The notes beneath the pieces were generated by a model, which was given only the letters and a program-made list of their open reading frames with translations, was not told the origin of the DNA and searched no databases. The position numbers and the translations under genes are program-made. 39,240 bases of DNA, taken from Phycisphaerae bacterium (GTDB lineage Bacteria > Planctomycetota > Phycisphaerae > SM23-33). Shown here one piece after another: positions 329 through 27,393 of this stretch (its first letter is position 1; each line of letters opens with the position of its first letter). The stretch spans positions 1-39,240 of the forward strand of contig DRGC01000043.1 in NCBI GenBank assembly GCA_011050235.1, read 5' to 3'.

Positions 329-2029
329 CTAGGCCAACCCGTGGCGCATCGCCGGTAGCTCCATCTCCTCCGGCGACGACGCCTGATCGACGACGGCGAT
401 CCCGTCGGCGACCAGCTTCCGCCAGTGCTTGTCATTGAAGATGCAGCCCGGGTCGCCAGCGTGCAGTTGCCCGAAATACGCGTCCGCCCGGGCCCGACAC
501 CCCCCGCAGTAGTGGCGAAACGCGCACACCTCGCAGTGGTGCAGGCGATAGTCGCGATCGTTGAGAATGTCCCAGAAGATACTGTTGTGGAAGATATCCG
601 CCAGCGAAGCGCCTCGCACGTTGCCCATCACACGGTGCGGCAGATAGACACATGGCGTGACATCGCCGTTGGGCTCGATACACACGTACGTCCGCCCCGC
701 CCCGCAGCCGCCCAGATACTTGGCCACCACGCGCGCCCTGACGCCGCTGCCCGAGCCGGCGTGCGAGCACGTCATGCGGTCTTCGCCGACCGCAGCCCCG
801 GCCAGACACACGCGACCCAACTGCGGCGCGGTGGAGATCACGCCCATCCCGCCGGCCTGCATCTTCTCGTTGAGAATCGCCAGCAGCTGCTCCCGCTGGG
901 CGGGCGTAATATCGCCGGAGACCATCTTCAACCCCCGGCCGACCGGGATGAAATTGAAGTGCGCAAACGACGAGGCGCCGAGATCGTTCTCGGCAAACTC
1001 CATCATGGCCCGAACTTCGTGGACATTTCCCTGGTGGACGCACATGGCGATCCCCAGCCTCAGGCCCTCGGTCGCGACGACGTGTCGGGCCCCCGCCACC
1101 GCACGCCGCCACATGCCCGCGACGCCCCGAAAAGCGTCGTGGCGATCGGGGTCGACCGAATCCAGCGAGATCTCCACGTACCGCATGCCGGCCTCGGCCA
1201 ACTCGGCGGCCAAGCTCGCCGTGATTCTCGTCCCGTTGGTCGCCAACGACAGATGCATCCCGGCGGCGCCGGCCCGACGAACCACGGGCAGCAGGTCCTT
1301 GCTGATGGTGGGCTCGCCTCCGGAGATCGCCATCATCGGCATCGAGTCGGCCACCATCTGATCGACCAGCGAGAGCTTCTCATCCAGCGATAGCTCATCG
1401 GCCAACGCGCTGTGGTTGCTATCCTGATAGCAGTGCTTGCACTGCAGGTTGCAGCGGTTGGTGAAGTTCCACACGGCAAACATCGGCGTGGAGAACTTCT
1501 GCGGCACGGTCAGGCCAAACTCGGCGATCGACCGCGCGACGACATTGAGCCCGCGAATCGTCGGGCGATGCTCAGCCAGCTTGCGGCGAAACGTCGCGAC
1601 CGTGGTCCGGCCCCGCATGCGGTCGATGAACAGGTGAAGGGGCGCGTAGATCAATCGCTGCCAAAATGAGGCCTCGCTGTTGCGATAGCTTTCGAAGATG
1701 CGCTGCAAAGCGGTGGTCCCGTCGCGCTTGGGCCGACTGATGCGGCCCAGTAGCCACCGCATCGGCCACGTGCCCAGCCAGTTCTCCAACGGATGGTGAT
1801 AATCGATCTGGAAGACCTTCGGCGTGGTGGAGTCGGCCAGTCGCTCGCTGGCGCGGGCGTAGGCGCCGCTGCTGAGGTGACCGTCGCTGTGGCGATCGAA
1901 ATCCTTCACCTCGTCGGCCGAGCGGACGAAGTCGTGGCGGTAGTCCTTGCCGAGCGCGGCGGCCGTGCTGTGGCCGGCGGCGGCCGTGTAGGAACTGTCC
2001 TGGGGGCGATTGTCCTTCCGTTCGATCAT
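329..2029 (-). CDS. Radical SAM/SPASM domain protein
   Basis: Cytoplasmic radical SAM enzyme of 566 residues with extra iron-sulfur clusters; substrate unknown. The [4Fe-4S]/SAM motif CNLQCKHC is at residues 193-200 and is followed by a GGEP motif near 237. A Cys-rich SPASM-type C-terminus has C442, C450, C460, C499, C502, C508, C511 and C529. About 180 residues precede the radical SAM core, which is long for the family and resembles nothing I recognise. The start chosen is the ATG at 2029, five bases after the upstream stop; an ATG at 2065 would overlap the upstream gene by 32 bases. It is the last gene of a four-gene operon with an HGD-D-type reductase, a Tes-like radical SAM protein and a lipoprotein. 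SPASM enzymes often modify peptides, but the company here suggests lipid or envelope chemistry. The family call is firm; the role is inference. Confidence 0.9.
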   Translation of the reverse strand: MIERKDNRPQDSSYTAAAGHSTAAALGKDYRHDFVRSADEVKDFDRHSDGHLSSGAYARASERLADSTTPKVFQIDYHHPLENWLGTWPMRWLLGRISRPKRDGTTALQRIFESYRNSEASFWQRLIYAPLHLFIDRMRGRTTVATFRRKLAEHRPTIRGLNVVARSIAEFGLTVPQKFSTPMFAVWNFTNRCNLQCKHCYQDSNHSALADELSLDEKLSLVDQMVADSMPMMAISGGEPTISKDLLPVVRRAGAAGMHLSLATNGTRITASLAAELAEAGMRYVEISLDSVDPDRHDAFRGVAGMWRRAVAGARHVVATEGLRLGIAMCVHQGNVHEVRAMMEFAENDLGASSFAHFNFIPVGRGLKMVSGDITPAQREQLLAILNEKMQAGGMGVISTAPQLGRVCLAGAAVGEDRMTCSHAGSGSGVRARVVAKYLGGCGAGRTYVCIEPNGDVTPCVYLPHRVMGNVRGASLADIFHNSIFWDILNDRDYRLHHCEVCAFRHYCGGCRARADAYFGQLHAGDPGCIFNDKHWRKLVADGIAVVDQASSPEEMELPAMRHGLA

Positions 2030-2033
2030 CGGG

Positions 2034-2510
2034 CTATTTCGTCGCCGCCGTGACCCGCAGGGCAACCGGCGCGCTGCGGGCGGGGTGGCCGTTCAACTCC
2101 GCCGTCATGCGCAGGGGTTCGTTCGGCGGCCAGTTGGGCTCGACGGTCAGTGTCCACTCGAACTCGCGCTGCTCGCCGGGAGCGAGGGTCCACGGGTGCA
2201 GGACCTGCAGGGCGGTCTCGGGATACTCTCGCACCTGGGTCCATCCCGACGGCGTCTGCCGCCACAACCGCACGATCACCAGCGCGCTGGTGGATGCGGT
2301 GATCTCGAGCGGCCGGCGCGTGTTGTTGACGGCCGTCGCGATGACGTGCACGTCCTGGCCGGCGGCCAGAGCCGTCGTGGACAGCGACAGGGTCAGTCGA
2401 ATGTCTTCGGCACGGGCGGCAAGGACCTGGCGCTGGTGGGCCACGTTGCGCTCACAGCCCGTCACGACAGCCAGGGCAATAGCTAGCGTGCATACGGCGT
2501 ATTTCATCAC
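2034..2510 (-). CDS. Small lipoprotein with a BsuPI-like (Ig-fold) domain
   Basis: A 158-residue secreted lipoprotein. Residues 1-18 form a signal peptide ending in the lipobox VVTGC, so Cys19 is the predicted lipidated residue. The rest reads as one beta-sandwich: a hydrophobic strand pattern, then RPLEITASTSALVIVRLWR, then the turn LAPGEQREFEW. This is the layout of the BsuPI/intracellular protease inhibitor domain found in many envelope proteins. The ATG overlaps the stop of the upstream radical SAM gene in an ATGA, so translation is probably coupled. It sits between two radical SAM genes in the operon. It may be a structural or carrier partner, or a substrate, of those enzymes; nothing in the sequence decides between these. 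Confidence 0.82.
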   Translation of the reverse strand: MMKYAVCTLAIALAVVTGCERNVAHQRQVLAARAEDIRLTLSLSTTALAAGQDVHVIATAVNNTRRPLEITASTSALVIVRLWRQTPSGWTQVREYPETALQVLHPWTLAPGEQREFEWTLTVEPNWPPNEPLRMTAELNGHPARSAPVALRVTAATK

Positions 2511-4390
2511 GGCGACATCTCCGAAGTTGGGGGCGGCGGCGCTGTCGGCGCGCCGTTGGCCCAGGCGGCTTCGACCAACTGGCGATACTGAGGGCCGCAG
2601 TTATAGGTGCAAAACGGGAACAACCCGCCCAGCGTCGAATACAGGATCACACAGCGCTTGGCGCGTTCGACGTCGAAATTGTATCGGTCCTGAAAATGCA
2701 TTCCCGCACACAGGAGCGTCTTGTAGTTGTGTTTCTCGCTTTCGCCTCGTCCGACGCGCTTGTCGAGCATGCCGGCCAGCGATCGGACGAAACGGCGGAC
2801 AGTCAGGCCCTCGGGGGCGGCGGCGGGGTTGAAGTGGCGTTTGAAGATCCGCAGCGCCCGCATCTTGTCCAGCCAGTTGGCCCGCCCGCGCCGCTCGATG
2901 CGGGCGGCCAGGCGGTTCATGTCCATGAACATGCCTTCGACGTTGATGATCTGCGGCATGGGGACGGCCTGGCCGGAAGGCGAGATCACAAAGTACGTGC
3001 CGAACGCACAATCCGTATGGCAGCTGGGGCGGATTTTCGCTTGGCCCGTCAGCGCCTCCATCAATTGCGCCAGTGGAACGACGACGCTGAGAGGGTACAT
3101 GTCGCGCAACGGCGAAGCTCCGGACGCCTCGGCGATATCGTGGGCCAGGTCGCCCAGCGTGTAGCGCTGCGACAGTCTCTTGGTCTCGTCGATTCGGCCG
3201 GAAAAGGAGACCGGCTGATAGCTGATGCCGCTGATGACGTCGACGTTGTCGACGGCGAAGCGGAAGATCTCGCCAACCTGCTCGTCGTTAACGCCCTTGA
3301 AAATCGTCGGCACGAGGCAGATCTTCATGCCGGTCTTGCGGCAGTTCTCGATGACGGCGAGCTTCTTCTCCCAGATGCCGGGGAAATTGCGTGTCCGGCT
3401 GTGCGCGTCCTCGCCGATGCCGTCAAACTGCAGATACAGCGTATGCAAACCCGCCTCGACCGCCTGGCGGGCGAAGCTCTCGTCGGCCAGACGCAGGCCG
3501 TTGGTGGCGATCTGGATGTGCGAGAAACCCATCTCGCCGGCGGCGGCAACGATCTTCAGAAAGTCCGGATGGATGGTGGGCTCGCCGCCGGTGAACTGGA
3601 TGGCCGTGCAGGGAGTGGGTTTCAACTCGCGCAGCTCCCGCAGCCGCTCGATGGCCTGCTCGTAGGTCAGCTCGCAGACCTGGCCGGTGACGCCGGCGTT
3701 GGCGAAACAAACCGGACAGCGCATGTTGCAACGATTGGTCAGATCGATCTGCGCCAGACAGGCCAGCGACTGGTGCTGGTTGCACAGCCCGCAGTCCGAC
3801 GGACAGGTCGCCGCACCGGCGACGTGGGGCTCTACCAGGCCCGCGTGCTCCTGGAAGCTCCACCAGGCGGCCTTGGAGTAGACCAGCGCGTCGCTGCTGA
3901 TGCAGTCTCGAACATGGCCGTGCTCGGGGCAGGTCTTCTCGATGAAGACCGCGCCGTCCTCGACGAACATCCGTCCGATGATGACGGCTGAGCATTTCGG
4001 ACAGAGCGTCTGGACCGTTCGCGGCAGGCGCCGCACGCTGGGGCGGATCCGCGAGCCGCCGAAGGTCTCGGTGGGGCTTGCAGGCACGTCGGAGGTCTTC
4101 GGCGTCCAGATGGCGTCGTGGTGGACCTGCCGTTGCGGCCCGCATCGGTCGCAGTGGAACGTCAGGACGACATCGGCGCCTGCGCGCTCAAACGCAGCGG
4201 GGACCACCTCGCGGCAGGCCGGGCAGGTCGCGCAGGTATCCACCGGCAAGTGGGCGAAGTGGTCGCTGAATCGCCGCATGTCGGCCTTGAACGCAAGGAG
4301 GCGTTCCTGGGGGACCTGCCCCGTCGCCTCGCCGCGGGCCGCGGACGATTGCTCTGGCGTGGTCGCTGCTTGTCCGGTGGTCGGGTTCAT
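2507..4390 (-). CDS. Radical SAM protein of the tetraether synthase (Tes/MJ0619) type
   Basis: A 627-residue radical SAM enzyme. It carries the signatures of the archaeal Tes family, which joins lipid chains by C-C coupling. A Cys ribbon (CPKC at 130-133) is followed by FVEDGAVFIEKTCPEHG (142-158). Next come CPSDCGLC (196-203), then IDLTNRCNMRCPVCFANAG (215-233) holding C221/C225/C228, then IQFTGGEPTIHPDF, LYLQFDG and GISYQPVSFSGR. An additional ribbon (C53, C56, C59, C80, C83) precedes the usual N-terminus. A Cys-containing tail (C561, C580, C594, C598) could hold a further cluster. The ATG at 4390 lies 23 bases after the HGD-D gene, and the stop overlaps the lipoprotein start. Known for the family: Tes makes tetraether lipids in archaea, and bacterial homologues exist. 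Inferred here: coupling of acyl or alkyl chains into membrane-spanning lipids. Another C-C coupling substrate is possible. Confidence 0.9.
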   Translation of the reverse strand: MNPTTGQAATTPEQSSAARGEATGQVPQERLLAFKADMRRFSDHFAHLPVDTCATCPACREVVPAAFERAGADVVLTFHCDRCGPQRQVHHDAIWTPKTSDVPASPTETFGGSRIRPSVRRLPRTVQTLCPKCSAVIIGRMFVEDGAVFIEKTCPEHGHVRDCISSDALVYSKAAWWSFQEHAGLVEPHVAGAATCPSDCGLCNQHQSLACLAQIDLTNRCNMRCPVCFANAGVTGQVCELTYEQAIERLRELRELKPTPCTAIQFTGGEPTIHPDFLKIVAAAGEMGFSHIQIATNGLRLADESFARQAVEAGLHTLYLQFDGIGEDAHSRTRNFPGIWEKKLAVIENCRKTGMKICLVPTIFKGVNDEQVGEIFRFAVDNVDVISGISYQPVSFSGRIDETKRLSQRYTLGDLAHDIAEASGASPLRDMYPLSVVVPLAQLMEALTGQAKIRPSCHTDCAFGTYFVISPSGQAVPMPQIINVEGMFMDMNRLAARIERRGRANWLDKMRALRIFKRHFNPAAAPEGLTVRRFVRSLAGMLDKRVGRGESEKHNYKTLLCAGMHFQDRYNFDVERAKRCVILYSTLGGLFPFCTYNCGPQYRQLVEAAWANGAPTAPPPPTSEMSP

Positions 4391-4413
4391 GGCCTGTCGG
4401 AAAATGCTGACGC

Positions 4414-5766
4414 CTATACGGCGCCGGCGAAATAGGCCGGGAAGCGTCGGCCAATGGCCTTGCGTTTCTGATAGTTTTGGGCGAGCTCCATGAAAATATC
4501 CAGGTCGCGCTGCATGTTGGAGCTGCTGTCGTCGAAGTAGAAGTTTCTAATCGGCAAGTCGTCGAGGTCGTGTGCGACGTCGTGATAGACGGCCTCGGAG
4601 ATGATGCCGTTCATGCACGTGAAGGGGCTGATGTCGATGATGCCGTCGGCGCCCTTGTGGTGAAGATAGATGGCCTTGCCAACCGACAGGACCATCTCGC
4701 CCAACGCTCCATCTGCGGGCAGGTAGGGCCAGCCCGGGCGGAGCACGTCGCGGTAGACGTTGTGGGGTTCCTCGTAGCCGACGAAATGCTCGGCGAACGG
4801 CTTGGACAGGGCGTTGATGTCGCGGCGCTGGATGGTGTGCTTGATGGCGGCCGACAGCGCCTCGCGCGTCAATCGCCGCCGCTGTCGTTTGAGTCGGCGC
4901 TTGTGGCTCCAGTTGGTGTAGATGACCCACTCGGTGATATCCGACAGCCAGGCCTCGCCGCCGTGGGCCTCGATCTGACGGACGGCTTCGCTGTTGCTGA
5001 ATGTGTTCAGCCGGCAGAAAATCTCGCCGACGACGCCGATGAGGGGCTTGTCGCGGGTGTAGCGGGCGGGGACGGCTTCAAACAACTCTCGCGCCGCACC
5101 CAGCGCGTGGATCATCTCGGCGAGGCTCTGGCGGTTATCGAGGCTTTGGTCCGACACGGCCGCCTCGACGAGGTCCAGCGAGCGTTCGAAGGCCTGATCG
5201 GCTGCACCCCGCTCGGTCTCGTAGGGTCGCGTTTTGAGCAGCATTTTTCGAAGAAGATCGCCGGCGACGATGCCCCGCCACATGCGGCGCATGATCGTCC
5301 CGCCATAGGCGGTGATATCGGCGTAGCCGTCCTGGCTGGTCGGTGAAATGATCGGCACGCCGGTGTATCCCAGGTCGTCGAGCACGCGGCGGAGGTAAGG
5401 GCTGTACTGCCCGAAGCGGCACGGTCCCTGCGCGATGGGCATGAAAAAGGCCGTCCGGTCCGGATCGAATCCGTCGTCATGAATGATGCGCAGGAAATCG
5501 CCCAAGGTGATCTTGGCCGGGTAGCATTCCTCACCGGAACTGAACAGCCCGCCGAGTTCGAGCGTGCGCTCGTCGGACTGGGGGGTGGCGGCGGCGTCGA
5601 TGCCGACGGACCTGAAGGCGGCGGCGACCATCCGCGCGCCGGCATAGGTCATGCGGGGGATCCACAAGCGTCGGCCGGCCAACTTATCCTTGTTGGGCGC
5701 TGAGATCATGTGTGTGTCGGCTTCACCCAGATCGGCCGGGCCCCTCCCCGGGGCGTTGGCCGACAT
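4414..5766 (-). CDS. 2-hydroxyglutaryl-CoA dehydratase D-component-like reductase (COG3581/HGD-D)
   Basis: A 450-residue iron-sulfur protein of the HGD-D/DUF2229 superfamily. Conserved features read from the sequence are SSGEECYPAK (C81), QGPCRFGQYSPY (C116), GEIFCRLNTFSN (C251) and SPFTCMNG (C384). These four Cys are the likely ligands of a low-potential cluster. In PlsA (plasmalogen synthesis in clostridia) and in bacterial glycerol-ester reductases the same domain is fused to a BcrAD/BadFG ATPase; here it stands alone and no such ATPase is in the window. It is the first gene of the operon with the Tes-like enzyme. The inferred role is reduction of an ester or thioester, perhaps lipid ester to ether. 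The start is uncertain: ATG 5766 is used because codon use stays coding-like up to it. GTG 5781 abuts the tRNA terminator, and ATG 5709 lies just before the conserved core. Confidence 0.87.
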   Translation of the reverse strand: MSANAPGRGPADLGEADTHMISAPNKDKLAGRRLWIPRMTYAGARMVAAAFRSVGIDAAATPQSDERTLELGGLFSSGEECYPAKITLGDFLRIIHDDGFDPDRTAFFMPIAQGPCRFGQYSPYLRRVLDDLGYTGVPIISPTSQDGYADITAYGGTIMRRMWRGIVAGDLLRKMLLKTRPYETERGAADQAFERSLDLVEAAVSDQSLDNRQSLAEMIHALGAARELFEAVPARYTRDKPLIGVVGEIFCRLNTFSNSEAVRQIEAHGGEAWLSDITEWVIYTNWSHKRRLKRQRRRLTREALSAAIKHTIQRRDINALSKPFAEHFVGYEEPHNVYRDVLRPGWPYLPADGALGEMVLSVGKAIYLHHKGADGIIDISPFTCMNGIISEAVYHDVAHDLDDLPIRNFYFDDSSSNMQRDLDIFMELAQNYQKRKAIGRRFPAYFAGAV

Positions 5767-5789
5767 CGTCGTCTGTTGCACGACCTGTC

Positions 5790-5822
5790 CAAAAACACAA
5801 GAACCGCCGACGCCGGCGGCGG
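5790..5822 (-). terminator. Rho-independent terminator of the tRNA-Thr(UGU) gene
   Basis: Read on the minus strand, a CCGCCG/CGGCGG stem (5804-5809 with 5817-5822) is followed by a T-rich tract, TTCTTGTGTTTTT. It lies directly downstream of the tRNA and ahead of the HGD-D gene, so that operon probably has its own promoter, which I could not identify. Confidence 0.6.
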
Positions 5823-5833
5823 ATATGCATCCA

Positions 5834-5905
5834 AGCCAGCGGAGGGAATCGAACCCACAACCACCGCTTTACAAAAGCGGGGCTCTACCGTTGAGCTACG
5901 CTGGC
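5834..5905 (-). tRNA. tRNA-Thr (anticodon TGT)
   Basis: The cloverleaf is complete: a 7-bp acceptor stem GCCAGCG/CGCTGGC, D-arm GCTC/GAGC, anticodon stem CCGCT/AGCGG with loop TTTGTAA (anticodon TGT, codon ACA), and T-arm GTGGG TTCGATT CCCTC. The discriminator base is T and the CCA end is not encoded. It is about 72 nt long. Confidence 0.97.
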
Positions 5906-6083: not shown

Positions 6084-8279
6084 CTAACTCGGCAGCGACT
6101 GGCGCTCGCGGTATTCGTAGAACGCTTCGTAGTTCTTTCGCAGGTACCCGCCGGCCATCGCTCGCACGCCGTTGAGGATCGCACCCAAAATGTGAGCGTT
6201 GGCCTCGATCATATCGTCTCGGGCTTTCTGGGCGACGCCATGGGTATTCACGCCGGCGCGAAAGACCATGATCACGCCGTCCACCTGGCCAGCCAGCACG
6301 GCCGGATCGGTCACCACCAGGCAGGGCCCGGAATCGAACAGAATGCGATCGTATTGGGTGACGGCCTCTTCGATCAGATCCCGCATCTGAACCGAGGCCA
6401 ATAATTCCGACGGGTTGGGCGGCAGGGGGCCGGCAGGCAGGATGTGCAGATTTTCACCGGCTTCAAAGATCAAGTCGCGCCAGTTGGCCTGCGCCACCAG
6501 CGCGTTGCTCAGTCCGGCGTCGGAGGCGCCCTCGAACAACTGGTGCAGCATGGGCTGGCGGAAATTGGCGTCCACCAGCAGGACCTTGCTGCCGCTGTGG
6601 GACATCACGATACCCAGATTGGCCGTGACGGTGGTCCGACCGTCTTCGGGCAAGGGGCTGGTGATCATCAACGTCCGCTGCCGCTCCAACGGCCCGCTGA
6701 AGATAATGCGCGTGCGAATATGGCGGAACGCCTCACCGACAGGCGAATCGGGGAACGTCTGCATCGCCAGCCGTGGATCGGGAATGTCCTCAGCCAAGTC
6801 GTCGATATGCGGGACCATGCCCAACAGCGGCAGGTCCATGCGCCGGGGAATGTCACTTGGCTTCTTGATCGACGTATCGATGACCTCCAGCAGAACGGTC
6901 AGCCCCAGCCCGACCAGCAGGCCCAGCATGACGCCGCCGGGCACCATGAAGGCATATTTCGGCTGAGATCGCTCGCGGGGCACCCGCGCGTAGGCGACCA
7001 AATCCACGGGGGCCTCTAGATCGCGGCGAAAACGAGCAGCGGCGAGGTTTCGGGTCAGCGTGGCGATTAGATTCTGGGTATCCGCTTCCTCCGACTTCAG
7101 TTGCCGCAATCGAGCCTGCACGAGGTGCAGTTCGCGCACGTCGGTCTCCACCAAGTGGATGCTCTCATTCAACTCGCTGATATGAGTTTCCAGGGCGCCC
7201 AGTTCAGCCTCCCGACTGGCCAGATAGGCTTGTACAACGATGCGCTGTTCTTCCGCCACTTGGTCACTAACGTTTTTCAACTGTGCCTCGGCCTGGTGCA
7301 CCGCGGAATGCCTGGGCCCCCAGGAACGGCGGTAGAAATCCAACTGGCTGACGGCCTGGCTCTGCTGGGTCAGAAGCGCGCGGTAGCCGGGGTCGGCGTT
7401 CAGCACCTCGCGCAGCTCGCTCAGTTCCAGCAGCTTGCCCTCATCCTGCGCCTGGGCCAACTTGTCACGAAGCGTCTTGACCTGCGTGTACTGCATCTGA
7501 TAACGAATGAACTGCATCTTCAGTTGGTCCAGTTCGTGGGTTTTGGTGCTGGACCGCTCGCCGAGATCAGCCACAGCGGCGCCTCGCCTCTGGTTCTCGA
7601 TATCGAGACGAATGTCTCCCAGCGCCTCCCTCCATTCCTTGATCTGTTTACTTAACCGATCGATGTGGGCCAGCAGACGTTGGTCATGGCTGTCCTTGCT
7701 GATACGAACATAGGCCTCCGCGACGGCGTTGGCGACGATGGCGACCTCGTTCTTGTCCCCGATCATCATGGAGACGTAGATCAGTCGCGTCTTGGCTCGC
7801 GGGGAAACTGTGAGGCTTCGTTTTAACCGTTCGACCAGATCGGCCTTGGGTCCGCGCTTGGACCAGCTGGTCTTGCGGAGCTCTTCGTTTTGGGCCGCCT
7901 CGTTGAGCGTGTCCTCTTGAACGATCAGTTCGGCATGGGTGGCCAGCAACTCTGGCATGTCGGTCGAAATGCCGGTATCGGCAGCGACAAAGGCCTGATT
8001 GCCCCGCATCGGCGTCCGGACTGCCAGGACCGCAGTGGCTCTGAACATCGGCGCCCATTTGGCCCATAGAAATGTGCCCACGATCGCAATGCATGTGAAA
8101 AACACGACAAAGATGGCGATCATCCACATTCGCTTGCGCAGGATCTGGATGATGTCGCGCGGCGAGAACTTGCGCCCCTCCTCGCCGCCGGGCGGCGTGA
8201 GCGGTAAGGCAAATGCCGGGGCGCCGGGTGGGCCTTCGGCGGGGGGCATGGGCTGGCCATACGGAGGCTGGGCAGTCAT
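6084..8279 (-). CDS. Wzc-like polysaccharide co-polymerase with degenerate tyrosine-kinase domain
   Basis: A 731-residue inner-membrane protein controlling chain length or export of a polysaccharide. A Pro-rich N-terminus is followed by TM1 (about 51-73), a long periplasmic coiled-coil Wzz region (about 200-415), TM2 (about 445-466) and a cytoplasmic BY-kinase domain. Walker A' VLLVDAN (D570), Walker B ILFDS (D649) and a C-terminal Tyr cluster (Y712, Y717, Y721, Y723) are present. The P-loop reads SPLPEDGRTT (541-550), so the usual Gly is Glu and the catalytic Lys is Arg548 (codon CGG). ATP hydrolysis or kinase activity may therefore be weak or lost. It is the last gene of the operon, 18 bases after the TPR gene. 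The family call is firm; the loss of activity is inferred. Confidence 0.92.
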   Translation of the reverse strand: MTAQPPYGQPMPPAEGPPGAPAFALPLTPPGGEEGRKFSPRDIIQILRKRMWMIAIFVVFFTCIAIVGTFLWAKWAPMFRATAVLAVRTPMRGNQAFVAADTGISTDMPELLATHAELIVQEDTLNEAAQNEELRKTSWSKRGPKADLVERLKRSLTVSPRAKTRLIYVSMMIGDKNEVAIVANAVAEAYVRISKDSHDQRLLAHIDRLSKQIKEWREALGDIRLDIENQRRGAAVADLGERSSTKTHELDQLKMQFIRYQMQYTQVKTLRDKLAQAQDEGKLLELSELREVLNADPGYRALLTQQSQAVSQLDFYRRSWGPRHSAVHQAEAQLKNVSDQVAEEQRIVVQAYLASREAELGALETHISELNESIHLVETDVRELHLVQARLRQLKSEEADTQNLIATLTRNLAAARFRRDLEAPVDLVAYARVPRERSQPKYAFMVPGGVMLGLLVGLGLTVLLEVIDTSIKKPSDIPRRMDLPLLGMVPHIDDLAEDIPDPRLAMQTFPDSPVGEAFRHIRTRIIFSGPLERQRTLMITSPLPEDGRTTVTANLGIVMSHSGSKVLLVDANFRQPMLHQLFEGASDAGLSNALVAQANWRDLIFEAGENLHILPAGPLPPNPSELLASVQMRDLIEEAVTQYDRILFDSGPCLVVTDPAVLAGQVDGVIMVFRAGVNTHGVAQKARDDMIEANAHILGAILNGVRAMAGGYLRKNYEAFYEYRERQSLPS

Positions 8280-8297
8280 GGCATTATTCCTCTCTCG

Positions 8298-11200
8298 TCA
8301 CCGGCGCAATCGCTGGATTGCTTCATCCAACGCCTTGCGCAAGTCCGGAGCCTCGTTCTCTTGCAGCATTATTCGGGCCGTCTCATACTGCTGCAGAGCA
8401 TCGCCCTTGTGCCCTCGCTGCTCCAGCGTCCAGCCCAGGTGGTACCGGTTGGTCGGGGAAGGCTGCAACTGGACCGCACGGGCAAGGTACTTGGCCGCTT
8501 CGCTGTGTTCGTCGAGCTTGCTCAGCGTCCATCCATACGTGTCCAGGATGCTGGCGTTATTGGGCGCCAGTTCGGCCGCCAACTTGGCGAGTTTGACGGC
8601 CTCCTCAGGTTTGTTCATGTTTTCGACGTATATGTAGGCCAGATTGTTCAAGGCATAGGCATTGCGCGGCTCGAGTTTCAAAGCGGCAAGATAGGCCTTC
8701 TCGCTTTCCTCGTAGTTGTTGGTCAGGTAATAGGTCTGGCCGAGCCCCACATGCGCGCTCAATCGGTCAGCGTTTGTCTTGCCCAATTGGAGGGCCTCCT
8801 GGCAGTAGCGCAGAGAGGCCTCGTAGTCGCCTTTTTCGCGGAGGAGCGTGCCGGCCACTTCGCGAATAGCCCAGTCGTCGGGACGAAGGGCAAACCATTC
8901 GACAATCTTCTCACAGGTCAGCGGCAGGCCGTGGACGATGCGATACTGCAGAGCGACAAACCCGAGTGAGCCGGGGACCACCTGCCGGACCGCCTGTTGG
9001 AACAGGTCGTCGGCCTGGTTTTGATCCCCACGTGAGGCCAGGATTCGAGCCCGAATCGCCATCAGCCAAGGGGCGAAGTCCGAGCCCGGACGGTTCTCAT
9101 AGGAGCCTATCACTTCCATGGCTCGTTGGTCTTGGCCGGCCTCGAGCAACAGGCGGAGGTAGCTGCGCAGCAGGTCCGAGTCGTCCTGGGAAAGACTCAG
9201 CGCCCTGCCGGCCGCCTCCGACGCTTTCGAAGAATCGGCGCGGGTGTACCACATCTGCGATTCGATGACAAAGTAATACGGGTCATCGGGGAATTGCTCC
9301 TGAGCCACCTTCAGGAAGTTCGTCAAACGAACCCATTTGCGGGCCTTCAGCCACGCGTTGGCTAAGGCTTTGTAGGCCTGAGCATAGTCGGCATTCTCGC
9401 GGATGATGCTCTGATAGGTGTTTTCGGCGCTGGTGGCGTCACCAAGCTGCATGTGAACCTGGGCCAATTGCATGGCCACTTCTTTCTTGCCGGCAGTCGT
9501 AAGGCGAAGGGCTTTGGCCAGAAGGTCTCGGGCCATGCTGAGCTGGCCCTCGCTCAAGTACACCTCCGCTATTTGCACCATTGCCGGTGCATAGTCCTTG
9601 TTGACTTCCAGGGCCTTCTCCAGCGAGGCGAGGGCCTCGGCATTGTTGCCTTGCCGGAACGCCAACACCCCGTGAAGCATCAAGGCAAGGGGGTCCGCCG
9701 GATCCTCCGCCAAGATAACGCTCAACTCCTTGGCGGCCTGATCGTATTGGCCTGCCTCCAGGCGATACGTAATCAGCCGTTTCATGGCCGCTGGCTCATC
9801 AGGCTTCAGCTTGACGTACGTCGCCATCGCCTCGACGGCTTCGACCATCTGAGGTCTTCGTGCCAGGGCCTCTGCCTTGGCCAGGTAGGGCCGAGGATCG
9901 TCCGGGTCGATTTCACTGGCCATGTTATAAGCGGCAAGAGCTTGATCGATACGGCGGTCAACCAGGAATTGCCCATACATCAGATAGACGTCGATCTTCG
10001 CGGACGGAGTCTTGGCGTTATTCAGCAACTGCGAAACAAGGTCATCCACTCCGCCGGTCTGGTGGGTCCGATTGTAGAATTGGATCAGCAGTGCGGCGGA
10101 GCGAATCTTATCGGGGGACATGTAGAGAATCGACTTGAGGGTGTCCTCCGCCTTCTTGAGTTGCCTGGTCTTTTCATACAGCAACGCCAGGCGGTAACGA
10201 TTGGCCCCGTCCTTGGGATTCGTCTGCAGGATGACCTTACGCTGGTCGATGATCTTGTACGGGTCGGCCTGCTCCTCGATCATTTCGAGGTATTCACCGC
10301 GGACAAACGGATTTCGGGGCGCCAGTCGGTAGGCGTTTTCGACCCATCTCTTCCAAGCATCCCAATCTTGGGAACTCTTCGTGACCCGGATCATTTGAAT
10401 GGCCGCTGGGGAAAAGCCTCGGTCCGCATCGAACACTAGCTGGAACTCTCTGGCCGCCAGCGCCATTTCTCCTTTGCGGTAATAGCAGTCCCCCAGCAGC
10501 ATTCTCGCCGGTCGCAGGTCAGGCCGCTCATCCAGCACATCGTCGAGTTTGCGAACCGCGTCATCCACATTTCCGCGCTGAATATCCAACTGGGCGCTAA
10601 ACAACCGGCCTCCCACCCGGTCCATGTTCTCATGGCGGGCCATGTCGACGCACTGCTCGGCCAAGGACCAGTCTTCCCTGCGCATGGCGGCCAGGAACAG
10701 TCGCTCCACGAGGCGAGGCCTATCCCTTTCGGGCGCCAGCTCGAGCGATTTCTGTAGCCAGTGGACATACTTGTCGACATCGTCGGCAACCAGGTAGACC
10801 GCCGCCTTGGCGGCCGCTCGGCGGTAGGGGTCTTCCATCTCTTCGGCCAATTTCAGCCGCGCTTCGCGCCGGGCTTCCTCGTTGGGAAGACTGAGGATGC
10901 TCAGTTGTACCTTGAGCTCTGGCCTATCGGGGTGAGTCTCGATGGCCTTCTGCAATAGCGCCCGCCCCTCGTCCTTGCGGCCCAGTTGTGTGTACATCGC
11001 CAACAGTTGCCTGACAACAGCCATGTTCTCCGGCACGCGCTCGTAAAGATGCTCCGCCAGTTCCAGTGCATCCCGGCGCTGGCCCTGGAACCACTTGGTC
11101 TCCGCCTGGTTCAGCAGGAACACCACGACCGTGACCGGCGGCTTGCCGCCTGGGGGAAGCCGCTCTATCTGTCCCTTGCGAATCTTGATCAACATCAGCC

Positions 11201-12806
11201 AGTGCTTTGCCTCCGAGTTGTCCGGATCAATCTCCAACAGGCGCCGCAGCAGGCGCTCGGCGCGATCATTTTCCCGGTAGTGGATCTGGATCCGCGCCAT
11301 GCTCAGCAGCACGGGAGCCTTATTGCCCCAGCCTTTCTCGACGAACTCGGCCAGGATCTTCTCCGCCTCCGCCCATTGTCGAAGACGAATGTAAACGTCT
11401 ACAAGAAGGTTGCTGGTCTGGGGTTCAAAGATGTCGTTCTTCTTGAAACTGTTGTGCGCCTGGCGGAACAGACGGCGAGCCTCAGGCAGGTCGTTTTCGA
11501 AAAGAGCAATTCGAGCCAGGAGCTTTGAGCGACGGGGAAGCTCCTGGTGACCGGAGGCCACGAGTTCATCGATCCGCTCGATGCAGGCTCTGACTTCTTC
11601 CACGCGCTGTTGCTTCTGTTCGGCCGTCAACTCCGCCACGATGCGCACTTCATCCATCAGGCGATCACCCAAGTCGTAGTTTAGTTGCAACTGGGCCCGA
11701 GTCAGCTCATAATTCTTTTGGAGATCGGCCGTTGCCTCGTCGCCTTCCTCGCTTTCCAGCAATGAACTAATCACGCCCAGGCCGCGACGAACGGCCTCGG
11801 TGGCGTCGGTCATCCGCTGCAGCCGACGCAAAACGAAGGCTTGGTTCTGATAGACGTGAAAGTCCGTGGGGTCGATTTTTTCGGCCTCTTCGAGCGATTT
11901 GATGGCCTCCTCCATTCGCCCGTCGCTCATGTAGTAGTTCGCCTCGGCCATCATTCCCACAGCATTGTTGGGTTCCGCCTTGATGGCCTTCTTGATCTGC
12001 TCGAGCGCGTCGCTGCGCCGATCCAGGCCGATCAGAAATTTTGAGTAATCCACATAGAATTGGGCAACGGCGGGGTTCAGCCGGATGGCCTCTTTGATCG
12101 TTTCCTCGGCCTGCTCGCTCATGTCTTTCTGGATGCTCTGCCTCGCATGCACCAGTAGGCGAAACTTACCCGTTAGCCAGTAATCGACATTGTCCGGCTC
12201 CAGGGCGATGGCTTCGTTGAAGTCCGCCAAGGCCTCATAAAACAAGGCGCGGTTGCCCGTGGTGGTCATGAGTATGGCTTGCGCGTACCCGCGACGGAAA
12301 TACGCCTGCGCCTGGTCCGAACTGTCCTTGAGCAGGGGCAACAGTTTCTCGGCCTGCTCGATGAAGACCGGCGCGTTCTTGCCGTCACGGACGGTCCGGC
12401 CCCATTCGATATCCGCTATCTTCGCCCGAGCATCCAGAAACTTCGGATCGATGGTCAGCGCCTGGTACAGATGCTGTTGACCGGCGTTGAAGAACTGAGC
12501 CCGGCGTGCATCAGGCAGGTCGGGCGTTCGCAGCGCATGCTCCATCTCGGCAATGGCCAGCTTGTAGTAGTTGCCGGGTACTTCAATCCCACGGGCCTTC
12601 TGGGCCCGGATCGTCCTGCCATAGTACTTGACCGCCGAAGCCCATTGGCCGTCGGCATAGGCCGCCTCGGCCTTGGCCAACAAGGGCACCGGGTCAGGGG
12701 GAAACAGACGTGGCCAAGCGAAATAGCCACCGGCGGCGAGGAACAGAAAAGCCACCACGCCCAGGAGGATCACGATACGCAGGTTCAGTCGTTTGCGTTT
12801 GGCCAT
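8298..12806 (-). CDS. Giant TPR protein of the exosortase/EPS locus (PrsT-like)
   Basis: A 1502-residue protein with a basic N-terminus ([10 protein letters not shown]), one membrane segment (about 11-30) and then almost uninterrupted tetratricopeptide repeats to the end. The clearest repeats are the last ones, for example [20 protein letters not shown] and the units after it up to about residue 1490. Large TPR proteins of this type (PEP-CTERM-associated PrsT family) accompany exosortases and are thought to act as scaffolds for polysaccharide synthesis or secretion. This copy has a membrane anchor where the classical form has a lipobox. It lies between EpsI and the Wzc-like gene in one operon, with a 17-base gap on the EpsI side. 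The repeats probably face the periplasm. The family assignment rests on repeats and context. Confidence 0.88.
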
Positions 12807-12823
12807 GGTAAGGTCTCTATCAT

Positions 12824-13741
12824 CTAGGGGGCTGGCTTAGCCCCGGGGGGATTAGCATCCAGCGCTTTGTCCAGGTCCTGAATATCCGCCTTGCCCGGCA
12901 ACATCTCCAGCACGTGCGGGAGGAGGCTCTGGAGGAATACCTCGGCAGCTTTGTCGGCCTCATCGGAATCGCCCACTTCCCGGTTGCCGAATGGGCCGAA
13001 CTGAATCTTCGCAAAGTACATGTGGCGCACGAACGGTGAGTTCAGCGTGCGCCTGACCGCAATGCGGTCGGTCATGGGCGCGTCGTTGACGCTGAATGTG
13101 TAGTACTCCATGCGTTTGCGATAAATGCCGCCTGTGCGCGCCACCCATGAGGTCACGCGCCGAAACGGCACCTTGACATCCCAGGGCTTCCGAACGCCGG
13201 CGACCGTGAAGGTTGTGGGTTCGGTGATCAGATCCTTAGCCCCGCCGGCTTGTTGGCAGATTTCGGGTACGTGGGGTACACTATCGCGCAGGCCCGTGTA
13301 GTAGTAGACGTCAACCTGCCAATAGAGGTAGGGGCTATCCGGATCGGTCACACTGTGGTCGCGGTAGATTCGGCTGGCGTACCAGTTGCTTCGGCGATCG
13401 GGCAATCGCCGCTCATCGGCCGCCGTGCCGATACCCAGCGCGTCCATCTCGTCATCGCGGAATACGATGTCCGCGCCTTCCTGGCGATCTGCGTACCGAT
13501 ACATGGGGTCGTCTTCTTCGATCGCACGGTAGTGGCCGAGTGTTCGCCTCATGGCGACATTGCGATAGTTTTCGTTCACCCGTACTCGCGCGGGCCAGCG
13601 GACGGGCCTCTTAGGCACCTTGCCGATCGCCCGAATGGTCAGCGCGCAGACGACGAGAATGGCAACCGCCAAAGCGAATGCCACCAGGGCGCCGCGACTC
13701 AGTCCGGTCGGCGCCGCAGAGCTGTCAGCATCAGTGGTCAT
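12824..13741 (-). CDS. EpsI-like exosortase-associated protein (DUF3485)
   Basis: A 305-residue protein with one N-terminal membrane segment (about 17-38) and a periplasmic DUF3485/EpsI domain. The hallmark is a [20 protein letters not shown] segment at 145-164, with His157 and Cys162 followed by a Gly-rich turn, and later YYTFSVND. EpsI proteins are encoded beside, or fused to, exosortases and are needed for the same exopolysaccharide pathways; their biochemical role is unsettled. The start is the ATG at 13741, preceded by GAGG at a good distance and located just after the exosortase stop. A longer frame from 13822 would overlap the exosortase gene and is rejected. The order Wza, exosortase, EpsI, TPR, Wzc is typical of such loci. 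Confidence 0.9.
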
Positions 13742-13749
13742 GGCATACC

Positions 13750-14721
13750 TCAGACGGCTTGCGCCGCTTCGGCTACCTCCTCCTCGATAAACAGGCGATT
13801 CATCAGCCAAGCCACCGCCCAAAGCGACAGCGCTGCCGGGACCAGCATCAACATTCCCGTGAACTCGTGCATGAAATCCTGACCCAGTTCTCTCTTATCG
13901 ACAACAAACATGGCCGCCGTGATTGTCACTCTCAGGACATTGCAGGCAATCGCCACCGGCACGCCCAACCCCACCAGCACCACGCGCTGCCAGACGGGGC
14001 GATCGGTCAAATAGGCCATCGCCACCGACAGCGCCATGAAGGCCAGTAGCAGCCGAATCCCGCTGCAGGCCTCTTCCACACGCAACGGTTCGAGCGCCCC
14101 ACGGATGGTGGTAACCATCAACATGCTCTTTTCGACGACGATCTCCACACCCACCAGCGTCAAAATCGCCGCAGACCCCGTTGCCGCAAGGTTCTGAAGT
14201 GGCAAGGAAATACGGCTGTAAACCGACTCGGGAATCGGCATGGCGAACACAAGGAACAGAATCGGCAACCAAGTGATCTTGAATATCTGCCATCCCCCCA
14301 GGAACAGCAACAAAGATATCGCCAACACCACCATCGTCACCTGTCTGGACCAGTCGTTGTTCAGCCAACTGTGCGCGTATATATGCATGGCCGCCGCCCC
14401 CAGCACCACTAACAGGCCGAACCAACAAACACGACGCCGCACAGAAACGATCTCTCGGAACCTACTGTAGATCAGATACATACTGAACAGAGGAATCAGG
14501 TACCCGTGCGACCAGTTCGCCTTCTGCCAATCATCCCATAAGTACCCGAACTGCCTATAGTTAATGAGCGTCAGCATGCCGGTGAGGATCGCAACCTTCC
14601 CCCAGACAGACCACGGCATCCGACCGCCCTGCTCTTCGATGGCGGACACGGCCACCAAGTCAGAAAGCCGTGCGCGTTGGGTTGTCTTGCCGCCATCATC
14701 CATAGCCGGCTGGAGTGTCAC
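13750..14721 (-). CDS. Exosortase (EpsH/Xrt family transpeptidase)
   Basis: A multi-spanning inner-membrane cysteine transpeptidase of 323 residues that cleaves and re-anchors PEP-CTERM proteins. All three catalytic residues are visible: Cys219 in EEACSGIRLLLAF, Arg264 in CNVLRVT and His285 in DFMHEFTGM. Hydrophobic segments fill most of the sequence from about residue 41, including the conserved NWSHGYLIP region near 69. The longest start is a GTG at 14721, 23 bases after the Wza stop; an ATG at 14703 is also possible and neither has a clear ribosome binding site. A likely substrate tail (PEP motif, membrane helix, Arg-rich end) is encoded at 39038-39240. The subtype (XrtA or other) cannot be set by eye. 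Confidence 0.95.
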   Translation of the reverse strand: MTLQPAMDDGGKTTQRARLSDLVAVSAIEEQGGRMPWSVWGKVAILTGMLTLINYRQFGYLWDDWQKANWSHGYLIPLFSMYLIYSRFREIVSVRRRVCWFGLLVVLGAAAMHIYAHSWLNNDWSRQVTMVVLAISLLLFLGGWQIFKITWLPILFLVFAMPIPESVYSRISLPLQNLAATGSAAILTLVGVEIVVEKSMLMVTTIRGALEPLRVEEACSGIRLLLAFMALSVAMAYLTDRPVWQRVVLVGLGVPVAIACNVLRVTITAAMFVVDKRELGQDFMHEFTGMLMLVPAALSLWAVAWLMNRLFIEEEVAEAAQAV

Positions 14722-14744
14722 CTGGCGCGTCCCGGGGTCATGGC

Positions 14745-16652
14745 TTACCAGCGCGTGAACCGATGGTGCGTCAGGCTCCGCTCTCCTATAGCGGGGTCAG
14801 CAAAATTGCGGTCATAAATGAAGCCAAAACCATAGGTCATACGAAATGCATTCCTGATGACGGCCATGAAAGATGCCGCTGGGTGCGTTCCTACTCCTAT
14901 TACGTCATTGGCCTTCAGGAAGATGTCGGATTCCTGTCCACGGAAGATCTTTTCGATGTTCAGCGGAATCGTCTGCTCCTGATTCTCACCTATCCGACGA
15001 AAAAGGACCGAGTTGCTTGGCCAAGCGATTCCGGTGAAATTACCGGCTGCGGCTATGGCCATTTTGACCGTAATTCTTCGTCCAGTAAGGCTATAGACGC
15101 CGGGCCTGGCCACCTCCCCCATGATGTAGAACTCGCCGATCTCCAAGGCCGGAACATGAATGATGTCATTGGGACGGATAATGATGTTCATCCGCGGGTC
15201 GCCGTCATAAAGCTTGGCCAGATTAATGGCAATGATGCGCGCCATGTCGGATCGTGCCGCCCGGTTCCAATCGAAGGGATCCGATTGCTCATCCAGTGGC
15301 TCGTTCTCCCCCGCCACGCTCGACCGATCGCCCTTCGGCGCCGTCGCAGGCTGGGAGGCCGATTCCCCGGGCTTGGACGGATCGCCGCCAGTCAGCCCAC
15401 CAGCCGGTTGATCGGCATCGGCGGCCGGATGCGTACCCTCCCCTTCGCCCATTTCGGCCAGATTGGGGACGAAAACATCCGACAGGTCTCTCAGGACCCA
15501 CCTGCCGGCGTTAAAGACCCAGCGCCGATTGTACTGCTGATCGGCAGCAGCTGTCGCCGGCGTGACTTGCAGCCCGCGGACATAGTGCAGCAGAGCGGCT
15601 GTCGAGCTCGTGGGCGGAACGACGGAGATCGGCCCGGTCGTCGGCTCGGCCGCCGGAGCTGGTTGGGTGGCCGGTTGGGGCGCCGTCTCGGCTGGGATCA
15701 CCACGGCCGGCAGGTCGGGCAGTGTCTCCGGGGTGGCCGATGTCGAGGTAGCTGGATGAAGATCAGGCGTCTCCGAGGGCCCTTCCATCGGCGGCGGCGA
15801 TTCATCTTCGGGCGTCATCGGCTGGGTCTGCGGGCCTTCGTCGGGTAAGGGCGGCAGGGAGGAGGGCAATTCCTCGCTTGGGCCCGTCGGTCGTTCTTCG
15901 GGCAGCCCGGACGTTGCCTCTGTTTCGGCAGGCTCGTCGTGGTAGCTCTTTCGGATGGCCGGTAGAGGCCGGATGATGTAAATGTACCGAATCGTCGGGT
16001 TGGTGATGCCCCGGGCCAACGACAAGGCCTCCAGCAGGCGCAGGTCGCGGCGCGCTAGATCGTAGGTGCCAACGCTGACCACTGAACCGATCATCGAGAA
16101 CGTCTGTTGCCGGCGTGCGAGAACGCTCACGTTGACGCGAGGATCGCGCAGCAGGTCCGGGCTGTATGCCTCCACAACCTCGTGACGTAGCTGTTGAGAC
16201 GTCAGCCCTTCTGCATGGAGGCGTTCCTCCAATAACGGCAAGTCGATAAAACCGCTGGCCTCAACTTGTCGACGGATGATGGTTTCCTGCCCCGGCTGGA
16301 AGAGATCCAGAATCCCGATATCCAGCACATCGTTGGGGCCTATCACGTAGTCCTCGTCGCTGTACTGGTAGTCGCTTTCGACGGGGAACTCCGAGTTCCG
16401 CAACATCTCTTCGGTGACATCGGCCAGACTTCCGCTCGTGCGGATCGGGTCGATGCGAGATCTCTCCGGAGAAAGGATGGGCTTGTCCGGCCCCAGGAAA
16501 CGCCCCCGATCAGTCTTGAACGCGTCCTTGAGCTTGTCGGAGATCCTCTGGCATCCAGCCGGCATGCCCGCCAGCAATGCCAATAGACCCACTAACAGGC
16601 AAAACGAATGTGAGCGATCAAAGGATTTCATCTGTGCTGTCCGTAGCCTCAT
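14745..16652 (-). CDS. Wza-like polysaccharide export lipoprotein with low-complexity insertion
   Basis: A 635-residue outer-membrane polysaccharide exporter. The signal peptide ends at a lipobox-like GMPAGC (Cys34). The Poly_export domain covers about 100-178 (YVIGPNDVLDIGILDL, then PRVNVSVL). A first SLBB-like segment follows to about 230 (VGTYDLARRDLRLLEALSL), and a second SLBB (about 503-555, FYIMGEVARPGVYSLTG) comes later. Between them lies an insertion of about 220 residues, rich in Pro, Ala, Thr, Glu and Ser, which is far longer than a normal SLBB loop. ATG 16652 is used; an ATG at 16631 gives an equally good signal peptide. It is the first gene of the exosortase block, downstream of a 268-base AT-rich gap that probably contains the promoter. 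Confidence 0.92.
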   Translation of the reverse strand: MRLRTAQMKSFDRSHSFCLLVGLLALLAGMPAGCQRISDKLKDAFKTDRGRFLGPDKPILSPERSRIDPIRTSGSLADVTEEMLRNSEFPVESDYQYSDEDYVIGPNDVLDIGILDLFQPGQETIIRRQVEASGFIDLPLLEERLHAEGLTSQQLRHEVVEAYSPDLLRDPRVNVSVLARRQQTFSMIGSVVSVGTYDLARRDLRLLEALSLARGITNPTIRYIYIIRPLPAIRKSYHDEPAETEATSGLPEERPTGPSEELPSSLPPLPDEGPQTQPMTPEDESPPPMEGPSETPDLHPATSTSATPETLPDLPAVVIPAETAPQPATQPAPAAEPTTGPISVVPPTSSTAALLHYVRGLQVTPATAAADQQYNRRWVFNAGRWVLRDLSDVFVPNLAEMGEGEGTHPAADADQPAGGLTGGDPSKPGESASQPATAPKGDRSSVAGENEPLDEQSDPFDWNRAARSDMARIIAINLAKLYDGDPRMNIIIRPNDIIHVPALEIGEFYIMGEVARPGVYSLTGRRITVKMAIAAAGNFTGIAWPSNSVLFRRIGENQEQTIPLNIEKIFRGQESDIFLKANDVIGVGTHPAASFMAVIRNAFRMTYGFGFIYDRNFADPAIGERSLTHHRFTRW

Positions 16653-19611: not shown

Positions 19612-19683
19612 GCCGACTTAGCTCAACGGTAGAGCACAGCTTTCGTAAAGCTGAGGTTCTGGGTTCGAATCCCAGAGTCGGCC
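19612..19683 (+). tRNA. tRNA-Thr (anticodon CGT)
   Basis: The cloverleaf is complete: acceptor GCCGACT/AGTCGGC, D-arm GCTC/GAGC, anticodon stem CAGCT/AGCTG with loop TTCGTAA (anticodon CGT, codon ACG), and T-arm CTGGG TTCGAAT CCCAG. The discriminator base is C and no CCA is encoded. No clear promoter lies directly upstream. Confidence 0.97.
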
Positions 19684-27300: not shown

Positions 27301-27393
27301 TCGCCCGGGCCGCGAGAATCTCCGCCAGAAAGCTTGAAGGCCCGCAGACCATGGCCCATACTGCCGCATTCGGCCTGTGAGAGAGGATCACCG

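Follow-up and report, generated by a model that had tools for sequence, protein, structure and literature searches.

We analysed a 39,240-nucleotide (nt) stretch of a Phycisphaerae bacterium genome (contig DRGC01000043.1 of assembly GCA_011050235.1; the whole stretch is hereafter the window), in which four tightly spaced genes on the minus strand (positions 329-5781) encode, in this order, an HGD-D-like reductase, a Tes-like radical SAM protein, a lipoprotein and a radical SAM/SPASM protein. This block is probably an operon for bacterial membrane-spanning ether lipids resembling branched glycerol dialkyl glycerol tetraethers (brGDGTs), possibly carrying a Gms-type cross-link as in branched glycerol monoalkyl glycerol tetraethers (brGMGTs), a reading to which we give a probability of roughly two in three. 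Two assignments carry it. The 627-amino-acid (aa) protein is a true homologue of tetraether synthase (Tes) and is predicted to couple lipid tails. The other radical SAM enzyme is homologous to Gms, the synthase of cross-linked GMGT lipids in archaea, and is predicted to form the cross-link. We infer all activities, substrates, products and the order of steps.

The four genes are:
4414..5781, minus strand: putative glycerol-ester reductase of the Ger/PlsA type, reductase half only (COG3581/HGD-D-like); 455 aa if read from a GTG codon, likely start ATG at 5766
2507..4390, minus strand: Tes homologue, 627 aa
2034..2510, minus strand: small lipoprotein of 158 aa with a probable Ig-like beta-sandwich fold
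329..2065, minus strand: radical SAM/SPASM protein of the Gms family, 578 aa from a TTG codon; likely start ATG at 2029 (codon 13)

The reductase and tes genes are separated by 23 nt, tes and the lipoprotein gene overlap by 4 nt, and about 4 nt separate the latter from the SPASM gene if this starts at the ATG. A first-pass annotation had described four same-strand genes with overlaps or short gaps, among them a lipoprotein and a second radical SAM/SPASM enzyme, and all four reading frames were indeed found in place. The lipoprotein carries a lipobox (VTGC) whose Cys is invariant in nine relatives, and the SPASM enzyme is assigned here as the Gms homologue. The same annotation ended the block at 5766, which does correspond to an in-frame ATG (codon 6 of the reductase), although the reading frame extends to the GTG at 5781.

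Homology of the Tes-like and Gms-like proteins

Searched with the NCBIfam Tes equivalog NF045702 (cut-off 450), the 627-aa protein reaches 478.9 bits, and it matches MjTes (PDB 7TOL/7TOM) with an E-value of 1e-108. Homology to archaeal Tes, or GDGT-MAS (MJ0619, 7TOL, 7TOM), extends over the full length at 38-40% identity, and the predicted fold reaches a TM-score of 0.89 (target length) against 7TOL. Cofactor residues were mapped from the solved archaeal enzyme (Lloyd et al. 2022, PMC9433317). The mapped sites, and an extra motif of the window protein, are located as follows:
3920..4003, minus strand: rubredoxin-type site C130, C133, C154, H157 (MjTes C9, C12, C33, H36)
3707..3730, minus strand: radical SAM motif CX3CX2C (C221, C225, C228)
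2609..3010, minus strand: C-terminal auxiliary [4Fe-4S] region C461, M564, C580, C594 (MjTes C338, Met439, C455, C470)
4142..4225, minus strand: extra N-terminal metal-ribbon-like motif Cys56, Cys59, Cys80, Cys83, followed by His90

All 51 aligned rows keep the residues of the rubredoxin site, of the N-terminal cluster and of the radical SAM motif, and in the C-terminal region Met439 and three more Cys; the equivalent of MjTes Tyr459 is invariant in the alignment and that of His83 is also retained. Judging by conservation, MjTes C338, C455 and C470 would be the ligands of the C-terminal [4Fe-4S] site. With the family cut-off passed and the metal-site residues kept, the Tes/MJ0619 signatures noted in the first-pass annotation are confirmed.

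Phylogeny gives the same answer. In a tree sampled without acidobacterial Tes, planctomycete-type Tes form one clade; this clade and archaeal Tes make up a group from which TrsS-like proteins are separate (100/100). A TrsS-type role was rejected on this separate branching, on a score of 311 bits where the NCBIfam model NF045646 requires 490, and because the TrsS-like proteins of the same class lack equivalents of MjTes C455 and C470.

The extra four-Cys motif is missing from archaeal and short-form Tes, and the long forms that possess it make up one clade within the planctomycete-type Tes. Cys56 is conserved in 41 of the 51 rows, the other 10 being gapped there, and the structure model has low confidence in this region. 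The motif could be an additional electron-transfer or zinc site. Short-form Tes occur in loci L102-L112, with no gms-like or reductase neighbour, and three genomes (G305, G307, G315) each carry one long and one short Tes. Separately, a Patescibacteria contig (locus L195) encodes a Tes that groups with the archaeal ones, by transfer or by mis-binning.

The second radical SAM enzyme carries Radical_SAM and SPASM domains (Pfam). Archaeal relatives of the SPASM protein were sought within Tes-bearing archaeal genomes, themselves found with a Tes profile. The best matches, most of them in open frames of 461-485 aa, also have the N-terminal domain of the window protein, which is 43% identical to archaeal proteins sharing this domain. 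In one of the matches, a Methanothermococcus homologue (locus L207), the radical SAM motif lies at residue 123, with Cys at 368, 370 and 436. It shows the cysteine pattern published for Methanothermococcus okinawensis Gms (C123, C127, C370, C372, C438; PMC11186832); species and residue numbering suggest that it is Gms itself. Using it as a stand-in query, we found 33% identity to the window protein over 461 columns (E 4e-79), within the published thresholds for Gms homologues (>30% identity, E <1e-50, >420 aa).

In a tree of the core domain, from which four very long rows were left out, planctomycete-type SPASM proteins and Gms-like archaeal proteins form one clade (100/99, 100% of bootstraps) that excludes the remaining archaeal SPASM proteins (AhbC/AhbD/NirJ-like), the latter recognised only by their missing N-terminal domain. 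No NCBIfam model claims either the window protein or the Methanothermococcus homologue.

A probable split reductase in a conserved neighbourhood

Ger/PlsA reductases combine one or more BadF activator domains, DUF2229 and HGD-D in one protein. This set is not found in the window protein, which corresponds to the HGD-D-like part alone. Against Pfam, it gave a weak DUF2229 match and none to HGD-D, nothing being confident; no direct match to HGD-D was obtained in Pfam or PDB, and no HGD-D match in the genome exceeds the Pfam cut-off. It shows, however, 37-38% identity to the C-terminal portion of fused relatives that are about 1,500 aa long, one of which comprises two BadF domains, DUF2229 and an HGD-D match (E 1.6e-5, under the gathering score). 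The window protein bears the HGD-D label solely because of this homology. The HGD-D/COG3581 assignment of the first-pass annotation thus survives as a remote, C-terminal homology, but without a direct Pfam match and with the activator half encoded elsewhere. Cys86, Cys121 and Cys389 are invariant among relatives, which suggests a three-Cys, dehydratase-like [4Fe-4S] site.

The sole DUF2229 match over cut-off in the genome lies on another contig (C18), the end of which truncates the gene; in locus L072, the activator comprises two BadF domains and DUF2229. The PlsA-like proteins of Ger and PlsA similarly carry one or two copies of the activation domain PF01869 (PMC13274423). Activator and reductase are each present in 33 of 35 family genomes. 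Their genes are adjacent in loci L072, L076, L094, L098 and L240-L243, and fused, beside tes, in loci L083-L085 of another family. Given this adjacency in several relatives, the split pair is likely to form one enzyme. We also noticed, directly upstream of tes in three loci from other families of the class (L090, L091, L100), a second, divergent pair (about 22% identity for the reductase and about 34% for the activator).

To assess gene order, we surveyed 20 loci from the same family and order. The reductase gene (full or a large fragment) is directly upstream of tes in 19 of the 19 loci where it was called, at distances between -4 and 282 nt, and a gms-like gene lies downstream in the same orientation in 17 of the 19 loci that could be assessed. 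Conservation is lowest for the lipoprotein, which was recognised in 10 of the 20 loci. In other families, tes adjoins the gms-like gene in loci L086-L089, L093, L097, L099 and L101, the activator and reductase genes in L094 and L098, and the fused reductase gene in L083-L085. As related genomes repeat this gene order between unrelated flanking genes, the arrangement is not due to chance, and the expectation that these genes stay together across relatives holds.

Co-occurrence was then scored in 397 genomes of the class, where 89 Tes matches were sorted by hand, from identity and score, into 74 Tes and 15 TrsS-like proteins. Tes is carried by 74 genomes, the Gms-like protein by 67 and the reductase by 108, while 64 genomes have Tes and Gms-like proteins, 66 have Tes and reductase, and 57 have all three. 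Thus, 64 of the 67 Gms-like carriers also have Tes, as 66 of the 74 Tes carriers also have the reductase, and 10 of these 74 are without a Gms-like protein. Gms-like and reductase matches are absent from all 15 TrsS-like carriers. A reductase with the broadest distribution and a Gms-like protein nested almost wholly inside Tes carriers are what would be expected of a stepwise pathway.

Proposed pathway and competing explanations

In the pathway that we propose, the HGD-D-like protein and its ATP-dependent BadF/DUF2229 activator would act as a split glycerol-ester reductase of the Ger/PlsA type, reducing ester-bound fatty-acid phospholipids to their ether forms. The Tes homologue would then abstract hydrogens from the terminal methyl groups of two lipid tails, one of them held on the C-terminal [4Fe-4S] cluster, and join them into a core of the diabolic-acid or brGDGT type. 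The Gms-like enzyme would connect the two spanning chains by a further C-C bond to yield a brGMGT-like lipid, and the lipoprotein may play an accessory role at the membrane. We found no match to GGGPS over the Pfam cut-off in the genome; bacterial fatty-acid lipids are therefore the probable substrates, and archaeal-type lipids unlikely ones. Tes binds Escherichia coli ester phospholipids (PMC9433317), and tail coupling in bacteria has been concluded to be independent of ether bonds (PMC13274423).

The grouping of Tes and the conservation of the genes support the ether or membrane-spanning lipid function put forward by the first-pass annotation, the product itself being a prediction. More tentatively, at somewhat less than even odds, the block may hold a full bacterial route from ester phospholipids to ether-linked, membrane-spanning and chain-cross-linked (brGMGT-type) lipids, encoded by the reductase halves, Tes and the Gms-like protein. 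Several points weigh against the proposed function. According to one study (PMC11868695), no bacterial Tes has been proven to make membrane-spanning lipids, and Ger and PlsA cannot be separated by sequence (PMC13274423). The activator gene is outside the window and truncated by a contig edge. The reductase occurs without Tes in 42 of its 108 carriers, and the extreme Fisher p-values for co-occurrence overstate independence, as the surveyed genomes are related. Finally, two auxiliary clusters with four Cys ligands each, C370 and C372 among them, are expected of a Gms. The equivalent of AuxI C372 is an Ala in the window Gms-like protein, in which a nearby Cys, conserved in planctomycete-type rows, could substitute, while the pair mutated in M. 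okinawensis consists of two Cys.

This last point bears on the strongest competing explanation, which we consider rather unlikely: only ether and membrane-spanning lipids would be made, and the Gms-like protein would alter them in another way (ring formation, desaturation or a cross-link at another position). Such a role would fit the incompletely kept AuxI Cys pair (GGCGAGR in the window, GGCGCGR in published Gms), the long branch from archaeal to planctomycete-type proteins (1.75 changes per column) and the ten Tes carriers devoid of a Gms-like protein. However, GGCGAGR is also found in several archaeal members of the clade, and a distribution nested within Tes carriers is as expected if a membrane-spanning substrate is needed.

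Alternatively, Tes could act inside one lipid molecule, yielding macrocyclic diacyl or dialkyl lipids instead of membrane-spanning dimers. MjTes does produce both macrocyclic archaeol and GDGT (PMC9433317), but the presence in the same operon of a Gms-type enzyme, whose archaeal counterpart acts on GDGT (PMC11186832), makes this improbable.

The first-pass annotation also considered modification of an envelope component. A cassette devoted to a non-lipid component tied to the neighbouring exosortase/exopolysaccharide locus would account for the TPR and tyrosine-kinase exopolysaccharide genes lying upstream here and in loci L066, L068 and L069. Yet most relatives have unrelated neighbours, lipid-acting relatives are known for all three enzymes, and in the window the upstream genes are set off from the block by a tRNA gene and terminator-like hairpins, including:
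5803..5820, minus strand: terminator-like hairpin separating tRNA-Thr from the operon (pattern match only)
5834..5905, minus strand: tRNA-Thr (TGT) between the operon and the exopolysaccharide genes
We consider this explanation very improbable and judge it not needed.

Least probable of all is a tetrapyrrole enzyme (AhbC/AhbD/NirJ-like) located in the block by chance, since the top NCBIfam scores of the SPASM protein (NirJ2, AhbD, TIGR04053) are all far under their cut-offs and recur with the Methanothermococcus homologue, its N-terminal domain is common only to Gms-like proteins, and the SPASM tree leads us to reject a heme/NirJ role.

Related systems, implications and flanking genes

In fold, at every mapped metal-site residue and at Met439 and Tyr459, the window Tes matches archaeal Tes. 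It differs by its extra four-Cys motif, by a bacterial host with no GGGPS over cut-off and by ester-reductase and gms-like gene neighbours, its activity here being predicted. Similarly, the Gms-like protein shares an N-terminal helical-type domain, radical SAM and SPASM with archaeal Gms (M. okinawensis METOK_RS04425 and relatives), but has a longer N-terminus, Ala for C372, a bacterial host and probable co-transcription with tes. All parts of bacterial Ger/PlsA (two BadF domains, DUF2229 and HGD-D) are found across the genome or its relatives, although in this lineage they are split between two genes, with the activator on another contig. The Mss and Ger pathway of Thermotogota and Bacillota likewise involves ester-to-ether reduction and radical SAM tail coupling; the window cassette differs by a Tes-family coupler in place of Mss, a single operon and a Gms-like partner.

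Homologues of Tes, GrsA, Gms, Mss and Ger in Planctomycetota have been published one by one (PMC11868695, PMC8941075), and these studies state that the function of bacterial Tes is unconfirmed. For Black Sea Planctomycetota metagenome-assembled genomes, Tes, Gms and GrsA are reported singly, and the accessible text describes no operon, split reductase or three-way linkage (PMC11868695). We found neither the linked cassette nor a split reductase beside tes in the open-access papers searched, in agreement with the first-pass annotation, which knew of no such four-gene system, although an earlier description may exist elsewhere.

Branched GDGTs and GMGTs serve as climate proxies for temperature and oxygen, but which bacteria chiefly produce them, and by what complete pathway, is not settled. 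By joining Tes to a Gms homologue and to an ester-to-ether reductase, such an operon links three functions, names testable enzymes and carriers, and offers a gene marker for producers in metagenomes. If our proposal is correct, this planctomycete-like class would directly supply brGDGTs and brGMGTs to the environment, and the cassette would help explain the origin of "orphan" bacterial tetraether lipids.

Elsewhere in the window, the exosortase/exopolysaccharide locus (6084-16652, minus strand) encodes a Wzz/tyrosine autokinase, a 1502-aa TPR protein, a 332-aa protein, an exosortase and an export protein. A second tRNA-Thr (CGT) is located at 19612-19683 on the plus strand, and a RACo-like corrinoid-protein activator (27334-29232, plus strand) hints at anaerobic one-carbon (C1) metabolism.

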